A stretch of DNA of 64,000 nt, taken from NCBI RefSeq assembly GCF_026240095.1, contig NZ_JAPIVG010000001.1, positions 682,001 to 746,000 on the forward strand. Reading direction: 5' to 3'. The translations under genes and the position numbers were made by a program. The notes beneath the pieces were generated by a model. It saw only the letters and a program-made list of their open reading frames with translations, was not told where the DNA came from and searched no databases. This DNA is from Pedobacter sandarakinus. GTDB taxonomy: Bacteria; Bacteroidota; Bacteroidia; Sphingobacteriales; Sphingobacteriaceae. This document shows, piece after piece, positions 18,878 to 22,273 of the stretch. Every line of letters begins with the position of its first letter. Positions within the stretch are counted from its first letter, which is position 1.

Positions 18878-19450
18878 CTATTTTGCAGATTTTAGTTGAT
18901 TCAATAAACCAACGAACTTCTTATCATTATAATTTGCAATACCTTCATGCCTGAAAGATAGTCGCCCCTGTTTATCGAAAACAACAGTGGTAGGCAAAGC
19001 ACTTTCAAATATTTGCTTCGGCATAGCGCTTTCTACCTGGTACACCGGAAAGTTGTATTCCCGATCGATCATAAACTTAGTTGCCTTGGGCAAATTCGCA
19101 TCCGCATCGGCAAAAATGAATACAACCTGGTCATCGTCTTTAAATTGTGTAAATAGCTTCTTAATCGATGGCATTTCTGCCCGGCAAGGCGGGCACCATG
19201 TAGCCCAGAAATTTAAAAATATCACTTTCCCTTTTAAATCACCTAAGTCTACAACCTTACCCTTAACATCTTTAAACCTGATCCCACTTAAATCGCCCAT
19301 AGCAGTTGCCGGTGTTTCTACACTTGGCGCATAAAAACCCAAACCTATTATTCCTCTAATTAAAAAGGCTTTAGCATCAGGAACAAATATTACCACTATT
19401 AAAAAAACAATGAATAGGGTATTTACAATATTTTTTTTGATGATCTTCAT
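18878..19450 (-). CDS. TlpA/ResA-type membrane-anchored thioredoxin
   Basis: A 190-residue protein from ATG 19450; the upstream extension to 19537 is not conserved-looking and crosses the promoter. An N-terminal membrane anchor (about 8-28) is followed by a redoxin domain with Trp-Cys-Pro-Pro-Cys (Cys86, Cys89). The Cys-Pro-Pro-Cys motif is usual in TlpA/ResA-like reductants of periplasmic metalloproteins and cytochromes. It is divergent from a small His/Cys-rich exported protein and a TonB receptor, with an inverted repeat shared between the two promoters, so a common metal- or redox-linked signal is plausible. Confidence 0.87.
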   Translation of the reverse strand: MKIIKKNIVNTLFIVFLIVVIFVPDAKAFLIRGIIGLGFYAPSVETPATAMGDLSGIRFKDVKGKVVDLGDLKGKVIFLNFWATWCPPCRAEMPSIKKLFTQFKDDDQVVFIFADADANLPKATKFMIDREYNFPVYQVESAMPKQIFESALPTTVVFDKQGRLSFRHEGIANYNDKKFVGLLNQLKSAK

Positions 19451-19474
19451 TTTGTTTAATAAAAGCAATGTTAC

Positions 19475-19518
19475 GTGCCAAATATATAGAATTAGCCAAT
19501 AATTGCTACTTTTGGCAC
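19475..19518. promoter_or_regulatory. Divergent promoters within an 8-bp inverted repeat
   Basis: gtgccaaa (19475-19482) and tttggcac (19511-19518) are perfect inverted repeats 28 bp apart. Each half overlaps a perfect -7 box: TATATTTG on the minus strand (19479-19486) for the TlpA gene and TACTTTTG on the plus strand (19507-19514) for the small protein gene. The symmetry suggests either a joint operator or simply two promoters with the same discriminator GCAC. Confidence 0.5.
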
Positions 19519-19519
19519 A

Positions 19520-19852
19520 TTGAAAAAACATAGGCAATATATTAAACGATATTTTTCGGCATTTATGCTGTTCGCTTTTGCTATTGCCTTAACGCCATGG
19601 AGTGTTTTACACCATCATCAGGAAATTCCAGTTTCCAAAAAAGAAATCAATTGCCATCACGTTAGTCATGTACAAGCGCAGGGCGATACCTGTTTAATTT
19701 GCAAGGCAAGTTTCGAAAAAAACTTCGTACAAATTCATCACATTTACCGAATTTTTCTTGCTGCTAAAATTTTTAATCCAAAGCAGCCGCTTCTAAAAAG
19801 CAACTACGTAAACTTACTTCGTACAAGCTTACGCGGGCCGCCTGCCGCATAA
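19520..19852 (+). CDS. Small exported His/Cys-rich protein upstream of TonB receptor
   Basis: A 110-residue protein with a signal or anchor segment at about 10-28. After this come a His-His-His-Gln run, Cys-His-His-x2-Ser-His, and Cys-x2-Cys within the next 45 residues, which could bind a metal ion. The C-terminus ends Leu-Arg-Gly-Pro-Pro-Ala-Ala. That ending recalls small DUF2946-type proteins near copper or iron receptors, but the resemblance is weak. The start is TTG at 19520, only 5 bases after a perfect -7 box, so a leaderless message with a TTG start is predicted. The TonB receptor begins 102 bp downstream and is likely co-transcribed. Confidence 0.6.
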   Translation: MKKHRQYIKRYFSAFMLFAFAIALTPWSVLHHHQEIPVSKKEINCHHVSHVQAQGDTCLICKASFEKNFVQIHHIYRIFLAAKIFNPKQPLLKSNYVNLLRTSLRGPPAA

Positions 19853-19954
19853 TTACCACTATTTTGGCATTGCCATCTTCTTTAAGCTAAATCGAAACAA
19901 CTATTGTTTTTTTGATTTGGCTATTCTTATCGTTTACAAATTTTACTATATATT

Positions 19955-22273
19955 ATGAAACAATTACAGCTAATTGGCTTAGTAATTCTATATACATTAT
20001 TAGGCAGTACAGCCTTCGCAAATACATTAAAAGAAATTAGCGGGAAAGTTATTGATGCAAGCAATAACCAAAGTTTGCCTGGTGCCACCATCTATATCCC
20101 CGATTTAAAAGTAACTTCTATAGCCAATAACGATGGAGAGTTTACCCTAAATAATCTGCCCACCAAGGGCAGTTATTTGGTTGAGGTACATTACGTTGGT
20201 TATAGAACAGCCACCCAAATTGTAAACCTCGCATCTTCAGGCAGTTTAACCTTTAGCCTAAAGCCCACTGCAATAGAAACCAAGGAAGTTGTAATTACAG
20301 GTAGCATAATCAGCAGCACCAGTAAACGCAATAGCACTTCATCTGCGGTGTTGGGAAAAGATCAGCTGCTTGCACCATCTGCAAACTTAATTGATGCTTT
20401 AACTAGGATTCCGGGCGTATCGCAAATTACTACCGGCCCCTCTATTTCCAAACCAGTAATAAGAGGTTTAGGCTATAACCGCATTGTAACTTTAGATGAT
20501 GGTATTAAGCAACAAGGGCAGCAATGGGGCGATGAGCATGGCATTGAAATCGACCAATTTAAATCAGACAGGGTTGAAGTTTTACGGGGGGCAGCATCAT
20601 TAATTTATGGCTCTGATGCACTTGGAGGTGTAATTAACTTGTTAGAGCCCAGCACTGCGCCAGATGGCCAGGTTAAAGGCGAATTGATTAGCAACTATTC
20701 AACCAATAACGGTCTAACCGCTAATTCATTAATGTTAACAGGTAACGAAAACGGCTTTGTATGGAGGGCCCGTGGAACCTATAAAAATGCTTATTCTTTT
20801 AAAACGCCAACTGGCTATTTCCCAAATTCTGGCTTTAACGAAACCGATTTAAGTGGTATGGTAGGCTTAAACAAAAGCTGGGGCTATTCGCATTTAAATG
20901 TTTCCAGTTTCCGCAATAATATTGGTTTCTATGATCCATCTTTAGACGGTAATGGAAATTTTGTTAAGGAAAGTGGCGACCCTTTTACAAACGATGACTT
21001 TACGAACCGCAGCTTAGATTTTCCGCGTCAAGATATCAGACATTTCAAAATTGCGCTTAACAATAACTTTATTTTAGGCAATGGCAACCTAAAAGCAGAT
21101 TTTGGTTTCCAGCAAAACCAACGTCGCGAGTTAGAGGATGGTCCGGAACCTTCACTGTTTTTCGACTTAAAAACCTACAATGCCGATTTAAAATATTATC
21201 TACATGAAATGAATGGCTGGCAACCGGTTTTTGGCTTTAGTGCAGATGCCGGAAAGAGCCAAAACAAAGCTACAGAAGAGTTTCTTATTCCAGATTACAA
21301 TACTTACGGCGTTGGCGTTTTTGCTTACGCTAAAAAGAATTGGGAGAACAATACCTTTAGCATTGGTGCCCGTTACGACTACCGCAAAAACAATGGCAAA
21401 GAACTATTTATAGATGGCGAGGAGCAGTTTGCGGATTTTGAAAACAAGTTTTCTAATGTAAGCGGTGCTTTGGGCTTTACGCATCAGTTTAACGAAGAGT
21501 GGAACTTTAAGGCCAACGCTGGCTCGGCATTTCGTGCACCAAACCCTGCAGAATTAGCTTCAAATGGTGTACATGAAGGTACTTTTCGCTATGAAATCGG
21601 GAATTCTAATTTAAGCCCGGAACGCAGTTACCAGGTTGATGCGGCCCTGGAATATGAAGGCAAAATTGTAAGTGCCAGTGCCAGCATCTACAACAATTAC
21701 GTTCATAACTTCATATATGCATCTAATAATGGAGAAACCATAATGGCTGAAGGAGATGAGTACCCGGTTTACCGTTATGGGCAAGTTAATGCTAACCTTT
21801 ACGGCGCAGAGGCCAGCTTAACCATTCACCCCGTGCCGTTTATACATTTCGAAAATACTTTTGGTTATGTGCATGCACAAAACCAAACTTTAGGCAGACC
21901 ATTGGCATTTATCCCTGCCGGAACCTTGAGAAATGAATTACGCTTTGAGCCTAAAATTAAAGGAACAAACGACGCATATGTTTCTGTCGGGATTAATTCT
22001 GCCTTCAAGCAAACCAGGGTAGATGATGTTTTTGAAACACCAACCAGTGGTTATACGCTCTTGAATGCCGGAATTGGAGCCACTTTTAACTTGGGTAAAC
22101 AACCTGTTAAGTTTTCTGTATCTGCAAATAACTTGTTAGATCAGAAGTATTATGATGCATTAAGCAGGTACAAACCAGGCCGCTTCGATTCGGAAAATCC
22201 AAATTTAGGGGTTTACAACCCGGGTAGAAATATCACTTTCGGCCTATATGTACCCTTTACATTGGCCAAGTAA
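19955..22273 (+). CDS. TonB-dependent receptor
   Basis: A 772-residue outer-membrane receptor. The signal peptide ends near Ala-Phe-Ala. A carboxypeptidase-regulatory-like domain spans about 28-105, a plug about 118-228 (Pro-Val-Ile-Arg-Gly-Leu and Leu-Ile-Tyr-Gly-Ser-Asp-Ala-Leu-Gly-Gly-Val), and a beta-barrel follows to a C-terminal Phe-rich strand. It has the size and plug style of siderophore, vitamin or metal receptors rather than the 1000-residue SusC class, and no SusD gene follows. The small His/Cys protein just upstream hints at a metal substrate; this is inference. Confidence 0.88.
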   Translation: MKQLQLIGLVILYTLLGSTAFANTLKEISGKVIDASNNQSLPGATIYIPDLKVTSIANNDGEFTLNNLPTKGSYLVEVHYVGYRTATQIVNLASSGSLTFSLKPTAIETKEVVITGSIISSTSKRNSTSSAVLGKDQLLAPSANLIDALTRIPGVSQITTGPSISKPVIRGLGYNRIVTLDDGIKQQGQQWGDEHGIEIDQFKSDRVEVLRGAASLIYGSDALGGVINLLEPSTAPDGQVKGELISNYSTNNGLTANSLMLTGNENGFVWRARGTYKNAYSFKTPTGYFPNSGFNETDLSGMVGLNKSWGYSHLNVSSFRNNIGFYDPSLDGNGNFVKESGDPFTNDDFTNRSLDFPRQDIRHFKIALNNNFILGNGNLKADFGFQQNQRRELEDGPEPSLFFDLKTYNADLKYYLHEMNGWQPVFGFSADAGKSQNKATEEFLIPDYNTYGVGVFAYAKKNWENNTFSIGARYDYRKNNGKELFIDGEEQFADFENKFSNVSGALGFTHQFNEEWNFKANAGSAFRAPNPAELASNGVHEGTFRYEIGNSNLSPERSYQVDAALEYEGKIVSASASIYNNYVHNFIYASNNGETIMAEGDEYPVYRYGQVNANLYGAEASLTIHPVPFIHFENTFGYVHAQNQTLGRPLAFIPAGTLRNELRFEPKIKGTNDAYVSVGINSAFKQTRVDDVFETPTSGYTLLNAGIGATFNLGKQPVKFSVSANNLLDQKYYDALSRYKPGRFDSENPNLGVYNPGRNITFGLYVPFTLAK

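Follow-up and report, generated by a model that had tools for sequence, protein, structure and literature searches.

We analyzed a 64,000-nucleotide stretch of the genome of Pedobacter sandarakinus (contig NZ_JAPIVG010000001.1 of assembly GCF_026240095.1, forward-strand positions 682,001 to 746,000; hereafter, the window). At one locus in the window, a minus-strand gene for a TlpA-like thioredoxin (tlpA) faces a small open reading frame (ORF) of 110 amino acids and a gene for a TonB-dependent receptor of 772 amino acids, both on the plus strand. We propose that the small ORF encodes a leader peptide that controls the receptor by metal-responsive ribosome arrest. The features of the plus-strand pair are as follows (positions are those of the window):

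19507..19514, + strand: -7 box TACTTTTG of the leader-receptor operon (TAnnTTTG in 93/100 loci)
19520..19852, + strand: leader ORF, 110 amino acids, TTG start, predicted 1-nt 5' untranslated region (UTR), N-terminal hydrophobic helix
19610..19618, + strand: codons for H31-H32-H33; H31 and H33 are invariant (100/100 aligned members)
19691..19702, + strand: codons for the invariant CxxC (C58 and C61; CLIC, 58-61; 100/100)
19832..19843, + strand: codons for RGPP (105-108), the predicted ribosome-arrest motif, with the stop two codons on
19885..19922, + strand: RNA hairpin in the leader-receptor gap, 13-pair outer arms (-15.6 kcal/mol)
19955..22273, + strand: ZnuD-like TonB-dependent receptor, 772 amino acids (Pfam CarbopepD_reg_2, Plug, and barrel)
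20534..20539, + strand: codons for E194-H195, aligned with Asp-99/His-100 of ZnuD
21128..21130, + strand: codon for E392, a candidate equivalent of Glu-340 of ZnuD (register uncertain)
21572..21574, + strand: codon for H540, aligned with His-499 of ZnuD

A conserved pair of a small ORF and a TonB-dependent receptor

A search across the taxonomic family with the small ORF found matches in 115 of 301 genomes (E ≤ 0.01). We compared 100 loci: the window, 89 of the 121 non-window matches from this search (29 + 60; the remaining 32 are mostly weaker), and 10 named loci, all from Pedobacter, which partly duplicate the 89. A non-redundant set comprises 55 of the 100 loci, with small proteins that are under 80% identical to each other. 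The locus L107, which has KGPP instead of RGPP and a receptor with 27% identity, was excluded from this set.

In all 100 loci, a receptor gene lies directly downstream of the small ORF on the same strand. The gene for TlpA lies immediately upstream in 29 loci and is first or second upstream in 37; in the other 63, the two nearest upstream genes do not include it. The conserved unit is the small ORF and the receptor, and tlpA is a clade-specific neighbor. An earlier note on this DNA had joined all three genes into one unit: the small ORF and the receptor do belong together, while the thioredoxin, adjacent in fewer than a third of the loci, is not a core partner. The small ORF is predicted to head the receptor's transcription unit and to be co-transcribed with it.

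The small ORF is translated and is under coding selection. When we compared the window to seven relatives, the nonsynonymous divergence (dN) was 0.14-0.26 in every comparison, and the synonymous divergence (dS) was 1.4-3.9 in four of the seven (the other three returned no value). The aligned first codon is TTG in 72 of the 100 loci, ATG in 14, GTG in 2, and some other codon in 12. Leucine at the first position is always encoded by TTG, whereas TTG accounts for 96 of the 647 leucine codons within the 55 ORFs of the non-redundant set. As judged from the sequence, the start codon is TTG.

In 93 of the 100 loci, and in 51 of the 55 from the non-redundant set, the 60 nt ahead of the small ORF contain a plus-strand TAnnTTTG, with just 0.03 expected per locus. 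This -7 box is beyond chance, and the promoter is real. The same motif is not enriched in the gap between leader and receptor (2 of 55 loci, versus 4.7 sites expected). In Flavobacterium psychrophilum, the -7 box of sigma-A promoters lies at -12 to -5 (PMC9723704), which would place the transcript start of the operon at 19519, for a 1-nt 5' UTR. In 40 of the 55 loci, the box is 5-10 nt from the start codon, for a predicted 5' UTR of 1-6 nt. From these predicted transcript starts, the conserved operon would have an essentially leaderless mRNA. Such mRNAs are reported to be rare in the Bacteroidota that have been studied: they account for 5.5% in F. psychrophilum (PMC9723704), and in Bacteroides thetaiotaomicron, 3.7% of 5' UTRs are under 10 nt (PMC7366714).

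The small ORF as a putative arrest leader

The small protein contains HHH (residues 31-33), CHH (45-47), and CLIC (58-61), just as the earlier note described. Across the 100 aligned members, H31, H33, C58, C61, P107, and P108 are invariant, and H32 is present in 75. The two prolines belong to a C-terminal motif, which is RGPP in 98 members, RAPP in one, and KGPP in one (L107); in the 99 members with RGPP or RAPP, 2-6 residues follow the PP. Between CxxC and the arginine of this motif, there are 43 residues in 53 of the 55 non-redundant members and 44 in the other two, even though the mean column identity of this spacer is 0.28. In contrast, the linker between HHH and CxxC (residues 34-57), with a similar identity (0.27), comes in ten different lengths (21-30). 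A spacer of such constant length may act as a mechanical ruler between a metal site and the peptidyl-transferase center of the ribosome.

RAPP and RGPP are reported to be robust arrest forms that are excluded from proteomes (PMC12992588). Within the window, R[AG]PP occurs in none of the 60 ORFs of at least 100 amino acids (19,242 amino acids in total; the leader, if scored from its first ATG, is under that length). The small protein resembles RAPP/RGPP arrest peptides in being small, apparently secretory (given its hydrophobic helix), equipped with the motif near its C-terminus, and upstream of a candidate regulated gene. Export is suggested by the N-terminal hydrophobic helix only, which is also the sole well-predicted part of the AlphaFold2 (AF2) model (mean pLDDT of 61.4). 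That confidence is too low for a fold search with the leader, and in a profile search of the PDB, the best match was a eukaryotic zinc-finger protein (E = 0.048), which we took as chance. We also looked for other leaders in the genome that end in R[GA]PP, two residues, and a stop (other tail lengths were not searched), and found 5 pattern matches, versus 9 in the reversed control. Among the 5, the only convincing small protein is the ORF in the window.

A profile built from the 55 members matched 17 of 395 genomes from across the phylum (E ≤ 0.001), including 13 outside the family. We scored the spacing of the motifs in 11 of the 14 out-of-family loci (L154, L155, and L157 were left out), and 8 of the 11 have CxxC with 42-45 residues to R[GS]PP. 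By inspection, a TonB-dependent receptor is downstream of most of these distant matches. Two tentative relatives, L160 and L161 (leader matches at E = 3e-4 and 8e-4), encode a leader-like protein with RAPP and without CxxC, at the head of an operon that also has genes for an outer-membrane-like protein, for ZnuA (matched at 1.5e-58 in L160), and for an ABC transporter.

The best match for the receptor in the PDB is the zinc receptor ZnuD (4rdr; E = 3.2e-29, or 5.5e-65 with a profile). In profile comparisons, ZnuD scored 223 bits, as compared to 138 for PhuR and 107 for OprC. The best NCBIfam model is also that for ZnuD (NF038289), at 162.6 bits, which is far under its curated cut-off of 950 bits. 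The AF2 model of the receptor has a pLDDT of 87.3, and its four top Foldseek matches in the PDB are all ZnuD (TM-scores by target of 0.79-0.90). We examined the zinc ligands of ZnuD in 36 receptors (32 of the 69 that were long enough, and 4 distant ones). The position of E194 is glutamate in 35 and aspartate in 1, H195 is conserved in all 36, and H540 is histidine in 35. Glu-340 of ZnuD is at the margin of the aligned region, where it is paired with position 395 of the receptor; 25 of the 36 receptors have E or D there. E392, which is glutamate in all 36, lies three residues before the alignment begins. An equivalent of Glu-340 is likely, at an uncertain position. By alignment, then, the receptor retains at least three of the four zinc ligands of ZnuD.

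The same genome encodes a paralog of the receptor (36% identical) in a cluster at G000:C12 476118-482492 (L035, L176), together with genes for MerC, for an ATPase of the ABC type, and for a member of the Fur family. Given MerC and the Fur-family regulator, this neighborhood is, we presume, perhaps a zinc-uptake locus. The plug of the copper receptor OprC has a CxxxM motif (PMC8610252), and none of the 36 receptors has such a motif in the plug region. Zinc is favored as the metal because the receptor is ZnuD-like, the ZnuD ligands are conserved, CxxxM is missing, the paralog has that setting, and two tentative distant relatives are linked to ZnuA.

The RNA of the leader-receptor gap is unusually structured. 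Across the 55 loci, the mean z-score for folding of the gap was -2.17 (gaps over 160 nt were trimmed to 160), versus -0.16 for the sequence ahead of the leader and -0.30 within the coding sequence of the receptor. The z-score was below -2 for 30 of the 55 gaps, 3 upstream regions, and 2 coding regions. The gap differs from the controls with p = 1e-8 (Wilcoxon) or 2e-11 (Mann-Whitney), which are optimistic values as the loci are related. The gap in the window has a z-score of -4.85. We considered an intrinsic terminator, but the best hairpins in the gaps are not consistently followed by runs of T.

Because RGPP is adjacent to the stop codon, the spacer is fixed in length but free in sequence, and the gap RNA is structured, we view the small protein as probably a regulator that acts as a nascent chain, and not as a component of the uptake pathway. 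The earlier note had suggested a metal-uptake unit, which fits the ZnuD-like receptor and the conserved His/Cys motifs, but its view of the small protein as a metal-binding member of the pathway is probably of the wrong kind. We consider it probable that the small ORF serves the ZnuD-like receptor as an arrest leader peptide that responds to metal, whatever the metal. More specifically, it may be a zinc-sensing arrest peptide, with HxH and with CxxC a fixed 43 residues from RGPP, that is translated from a leaderless UUG and controls a ZnuD-type receptor, and that occurs widely in Pedobacter but only sporadically in the rest of the Bacteroidota. This fuller version is tentative, and we rate it slightly below an even chance.

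The scheme that we infer covers arrest, export, the identity of the metal, the direction of regulation, the site at which the transcript begins, and the level of control (termination or initiation). A single promoter, whose -7 box occupies 19507-19514, would yield an essentially leaderless mRNA that begins at about the TTG codon. The N-terminal hydrophobic segment would direct the nascent chain to the membrane, and the ribosome would stall upon reaching RGPP, two codons ahead of the stop. In the stalled complex, CxxC would lie about 43 residues back, near the exit of the tunnel, with the HHH region further out. When the metal, which is most likely zinc, is in short supply, the stall would persist, the leader-receptor RNA would be kept open or anti-terminated, and the receptor would be made. 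If metal binds to the His and Cys residues, then folding or pulling might free the stall; the gap RNA would fold, or transcription would stop early, and less receptor would be made. The arrest and the metal response are predicted from sequence and by analogy to studied leaders.

Several observations weigh against this proposal. CruR, the studied leader that it most resembles, senses copper (PMC9426467), and the arrest-peptide candidates that are reported as restricted to the Bacteroidota are Sec-related and end at a proline (NSP- or NAP-stop), without RGPP (PMC10987492). At E ≤ 10, the profile of DUF2946 (PF11162), the family of CruR, matched nothing in the genome that contains the window. When the 55 members were searched at the same threshold, DUF2946 was also absent among the matches listed, which cover 25 of 28 Pfam families. 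In L107, RGPP is replaced by KGPP. Of the distant members, 3 of 11 lack CxxC (L160, L161, and L165), and two of these precede ZnuA and ABC transporter genes instead of a TonB-dependent receptor. As for the RNA, RNAalifold predicted no pairs from an alignment of 41 gap sequences, and from 17 close sequences it predicted only 6 pairs, two of which have double changes. A helix that would hide the start of the receptor gene, by pairing with the region of the leader's stop codon, is found in 16 of the 17 close relatives, but not in the window. Over the 55 loci, this helix is not significant (mean z of -0.48, p = 0.095, with a gene's own partner doing the same as swapped partners). The start-hiding helix is not supported as a general mechanism and appears to be a clade-level feature.

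We also considered that the leader works by the same mechanism but that the metal, both sensed and transported, is copper, as for CruR and BfrG. This is a sub-case of the arrest-leader mechanism. The studied leader with this architecture in front of a TonB-dependent receptor does respond to copper, and its authors describe CxxC as a recognized copper-binding motif (PMC9426467). However, the receptor is nearer to ZnuD than to OprC by over a hundred bits, it retains three ligands of ZnuD, and the CxxxM of OprC is absent from the plugs of the 36 receptors. Furthermore, Fujiwara et al. name the Bacteroidota among the groups without copper-related RAPP/RGPP upstream ORFs (uORFs) (PMC12992588). Copper therefore seems unlikely.

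On the view that was implied by the earlier note, the small protein would, in its mature form, carry metal in partnership with the receptor, either in the periplasm or anchored to a membrane. This would account for the His/Cys motifs and for the invariable co-occurrence with the receptor, but it leaves the C-terminal RGPP, the constraint on just the length of the spacer, and the structured gap unexplained. Also, the model of the small protein is mostly of low confidence past its N-terminal helix. We consider a carrier to be doubtful, more so than copper sensing. Another idea is that the leader senses thiol redox and not metal, with TlpA keeping its CxxC reduced. The adjacency of tlpA in 29 of the loci fits, and some RAPP/RGPP uORFs precede genes with thioredoxin domains (PMC12992588). 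But in 63 loci, neither of the two nearest upstream genes is tlpA, and the invariant histidines and the metal receptor would be unexplained, which makes redox sensing quite improbable.

Relationship to known arrest leaders and to ZnuD

In Bordetella pertussis, CruR is a copper-sensing leader of the TonB-dependent receptor gene bfrG. It has CXXC and a C-terminal RAPP, with 45 residues between them, and it controls the receptor via arrest and Rho (PMC9426467). According to that paper, it was the first characterized uORF in a post-transcriptional response to a transition metal. Our family shares with CruR an apparent export signal, the CxxC, the R[A/G]PP a few residues from the stop, a long gap, and then the gene for a TonB-dependent receptor; the spacing from CxxC to the motif is fixed in both, at 43 here (44 in 2 of 55) versus 45, and so agrees to within 1-2 residues. 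The differences are that our family has RGPP instead of RAPP, an invariant HxH, a ZnuD-like receptor, a predicted leaderless TTG start, and a hairpin-rich gap, while a role for Rho is reported for CruR. As no match to DUF2946 was found, we rejected membership in that family and treated the small ORF as CruR-like, not as a member of the CruR family. DUF6769 (PF20558) was considered as a bridge: it has weak matches to 6 of the 55 members (best E = 0.0086), yet it matched none of the 118 Bacteroidota genomes that were searched, and so provides no link.

CutF, which precedes cutO in Rhodobacter capsulatus, is also an exported nascent metal sensor with a Cys motif, a proline-rich C-terminus, and a stem-loop before the next gene (PMC9973294). 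However, the Cys motif of CutF is CxxxC, its signal is copper, the gene that it turns on is for a multicopper oxidase, and its C-terminal proline motif alone gave no stall in the authors' test (PMC9973294). RAPP/RGPP uORFs of TonB-dependent receptors were described across Gram-negative bacteria by Fujiwara et al., whose seven newly identified arrest peptides are from Streptomyces lividans (PMC12992588). These uORFs have a signal sequence and the C-terminal motif, as does our family, but the available text of that paper describes no specific Bacteroidota family, no fixed spacing from CxxC, and no link to ZnuD. The Sec leaders of the Bacteroidota are leader ORFs from the same phylum with a proposed C-terminal arrest; unlike our family, they are found upstream of secA or secDF, have a proline at the extreme C-terminus, lack RGPP, and are not related to metals in the available account (PMC10987492).

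ZnuD from Neisseria meningitidis (4rdr/4rdt/4rvw) is the receptor's top match by both sequence and fold. Asp-99, His-100, and His-499 of ZnuD correspond to E194, H195, and H540, and Glu-340 possibly corresponds to E392 or a neighbor. On the other hand, the fold alignment has just 22-24% identity, our receptor has a CarbopepD_reg_2 domain N-terminal to the plug, and Asp-99 is replaced by Glu.

In the portions of the literature available to us, we found no description of a metal-responsive arrest peptide from the Bacteroidota or of this family of small ORFs. The class of metal-responsive arrest leaders is already published, and the Bacteroidota family would be new within it. If our proposal is correct, then metal-responsive arrest peptides extend to the Bacteroidota, in a family that profile searches keep outside of DUF2946, and the ligand has likely changed from copper to zinc. 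Such leaders would be a post-transcriptional counterpart to the control of zinc uptake by Zur, and small "hypothetical" ORFs ahead of TonB-dependent receptors would be regulators and not binders of cargo.

The upstream region and neighboring genes

The features upstream of the pair are:

18878..19450, - strand: tlpA-like thiol-disulfide oxidoreductase, 190 amino acids, WCPPC, a divergent neighbor (Pfam Redoxin, 7.6e-20; PDB ResA, 1.6e-17)
19469..19474, + strand: TGTTAC element, a conserved upstream cis-site (40/55 non-redundant loci)
19475..19482, no strand: left arm GTGCCAAA of an inverted repeat, not conserved
19479..19486, - strand: -7 box TATATTTG in the direction of tlpA (from sequence)
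19511..19518, no strand: right arm TTTGGCAC of the inverted repeat, not conserved

The inverted repeat that the earlier note pointed out is real: its arms, GTGCCAAA (19475-19482) and TTTGGCAC (19511-19518), are separated by 28 bp, and each overlaps a perfect TAnnTTTG box, TACTTTTG at 19507-19514 on the plus strand or TATATTTG at 19486-19479 on the minus strand. An operator for a regulator common to tlpA and the operon might be expected from the perfect 8-bp arms and from their single occurrence in the genome (across all 4.09 Mb, this is the only such pair with 20-36 bp between the arms). However, four bases of each arm (CAAA/TTTG) are the -7 boxes themselves. The palindrome could be scored at 57 loci (6 others lack a box, and in 37 no CAAA lies within range); just one of the 57, the locus in the window, has a perfect match in the four bases of each arm outside the boxes. 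Because these non-box bases are not retained, the perfect palindrome is due to chance. Also, the conserved element, TGTTAC, lies just beyond it. A shared operator is thus the least probable of the alternatives that we considered, and the symmetry that the earlier note saw in the promoters is not conserved.

TGTTAC is retained in 40 of the 55 non-redundant loci, at 42-72 nt upstream of the start codon (we scanned from 20 to 90 nt), with 0.02 expected per locus. It is kept whether the upstream neighbor is tlpA, the urocanase gene hutU, or another gene, and it might be the site of an activator or a repressor. Zur sites in Caulobacter are reported to contain TGTTAC or TGTTAT (PMC4176598). By eye, we saw no Zur-type palindrome or second half-site around TGTTAC. 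We also considered TGTTAC as the site of a genome-wide regulon. The pattern GCAATGTTACN{2,12}CAAA is found once in the genome, and AATGTTACN5CAAANNTA with up to two mismatches has 57 matches per strand, while its reversed control has 69 and 55, which gives no basis for naming a regulon.

A member of the hutU cluster is the adjacent upstream gene in 34 of the 100 loci. The hutU cluster (represented by L080:1350-3011) is found in 35 loci, and a cluster of aromatic amino acid lyases (L080:5913-7400) in 11; for hutU, the representative was confirmed by Pfam and the other assignments are by clustering. In many relatives, then, the leader-receptor pair lies beside hutU, sometimes with the lyase gene beyond the receptor. 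This lyase is probably histidine ammonia-lyase, which would make this a neighborhood for histidine degradation. Finally, distant leaders or leader-receptor pairs lie beside uncharacterized proteins that look by eye like lipoproteins (L158:7492-8358, L159:9971-10432, and L168:7488-8039). These have no Pfam family above the cut-off, and they are possible periplasmic metal binders.

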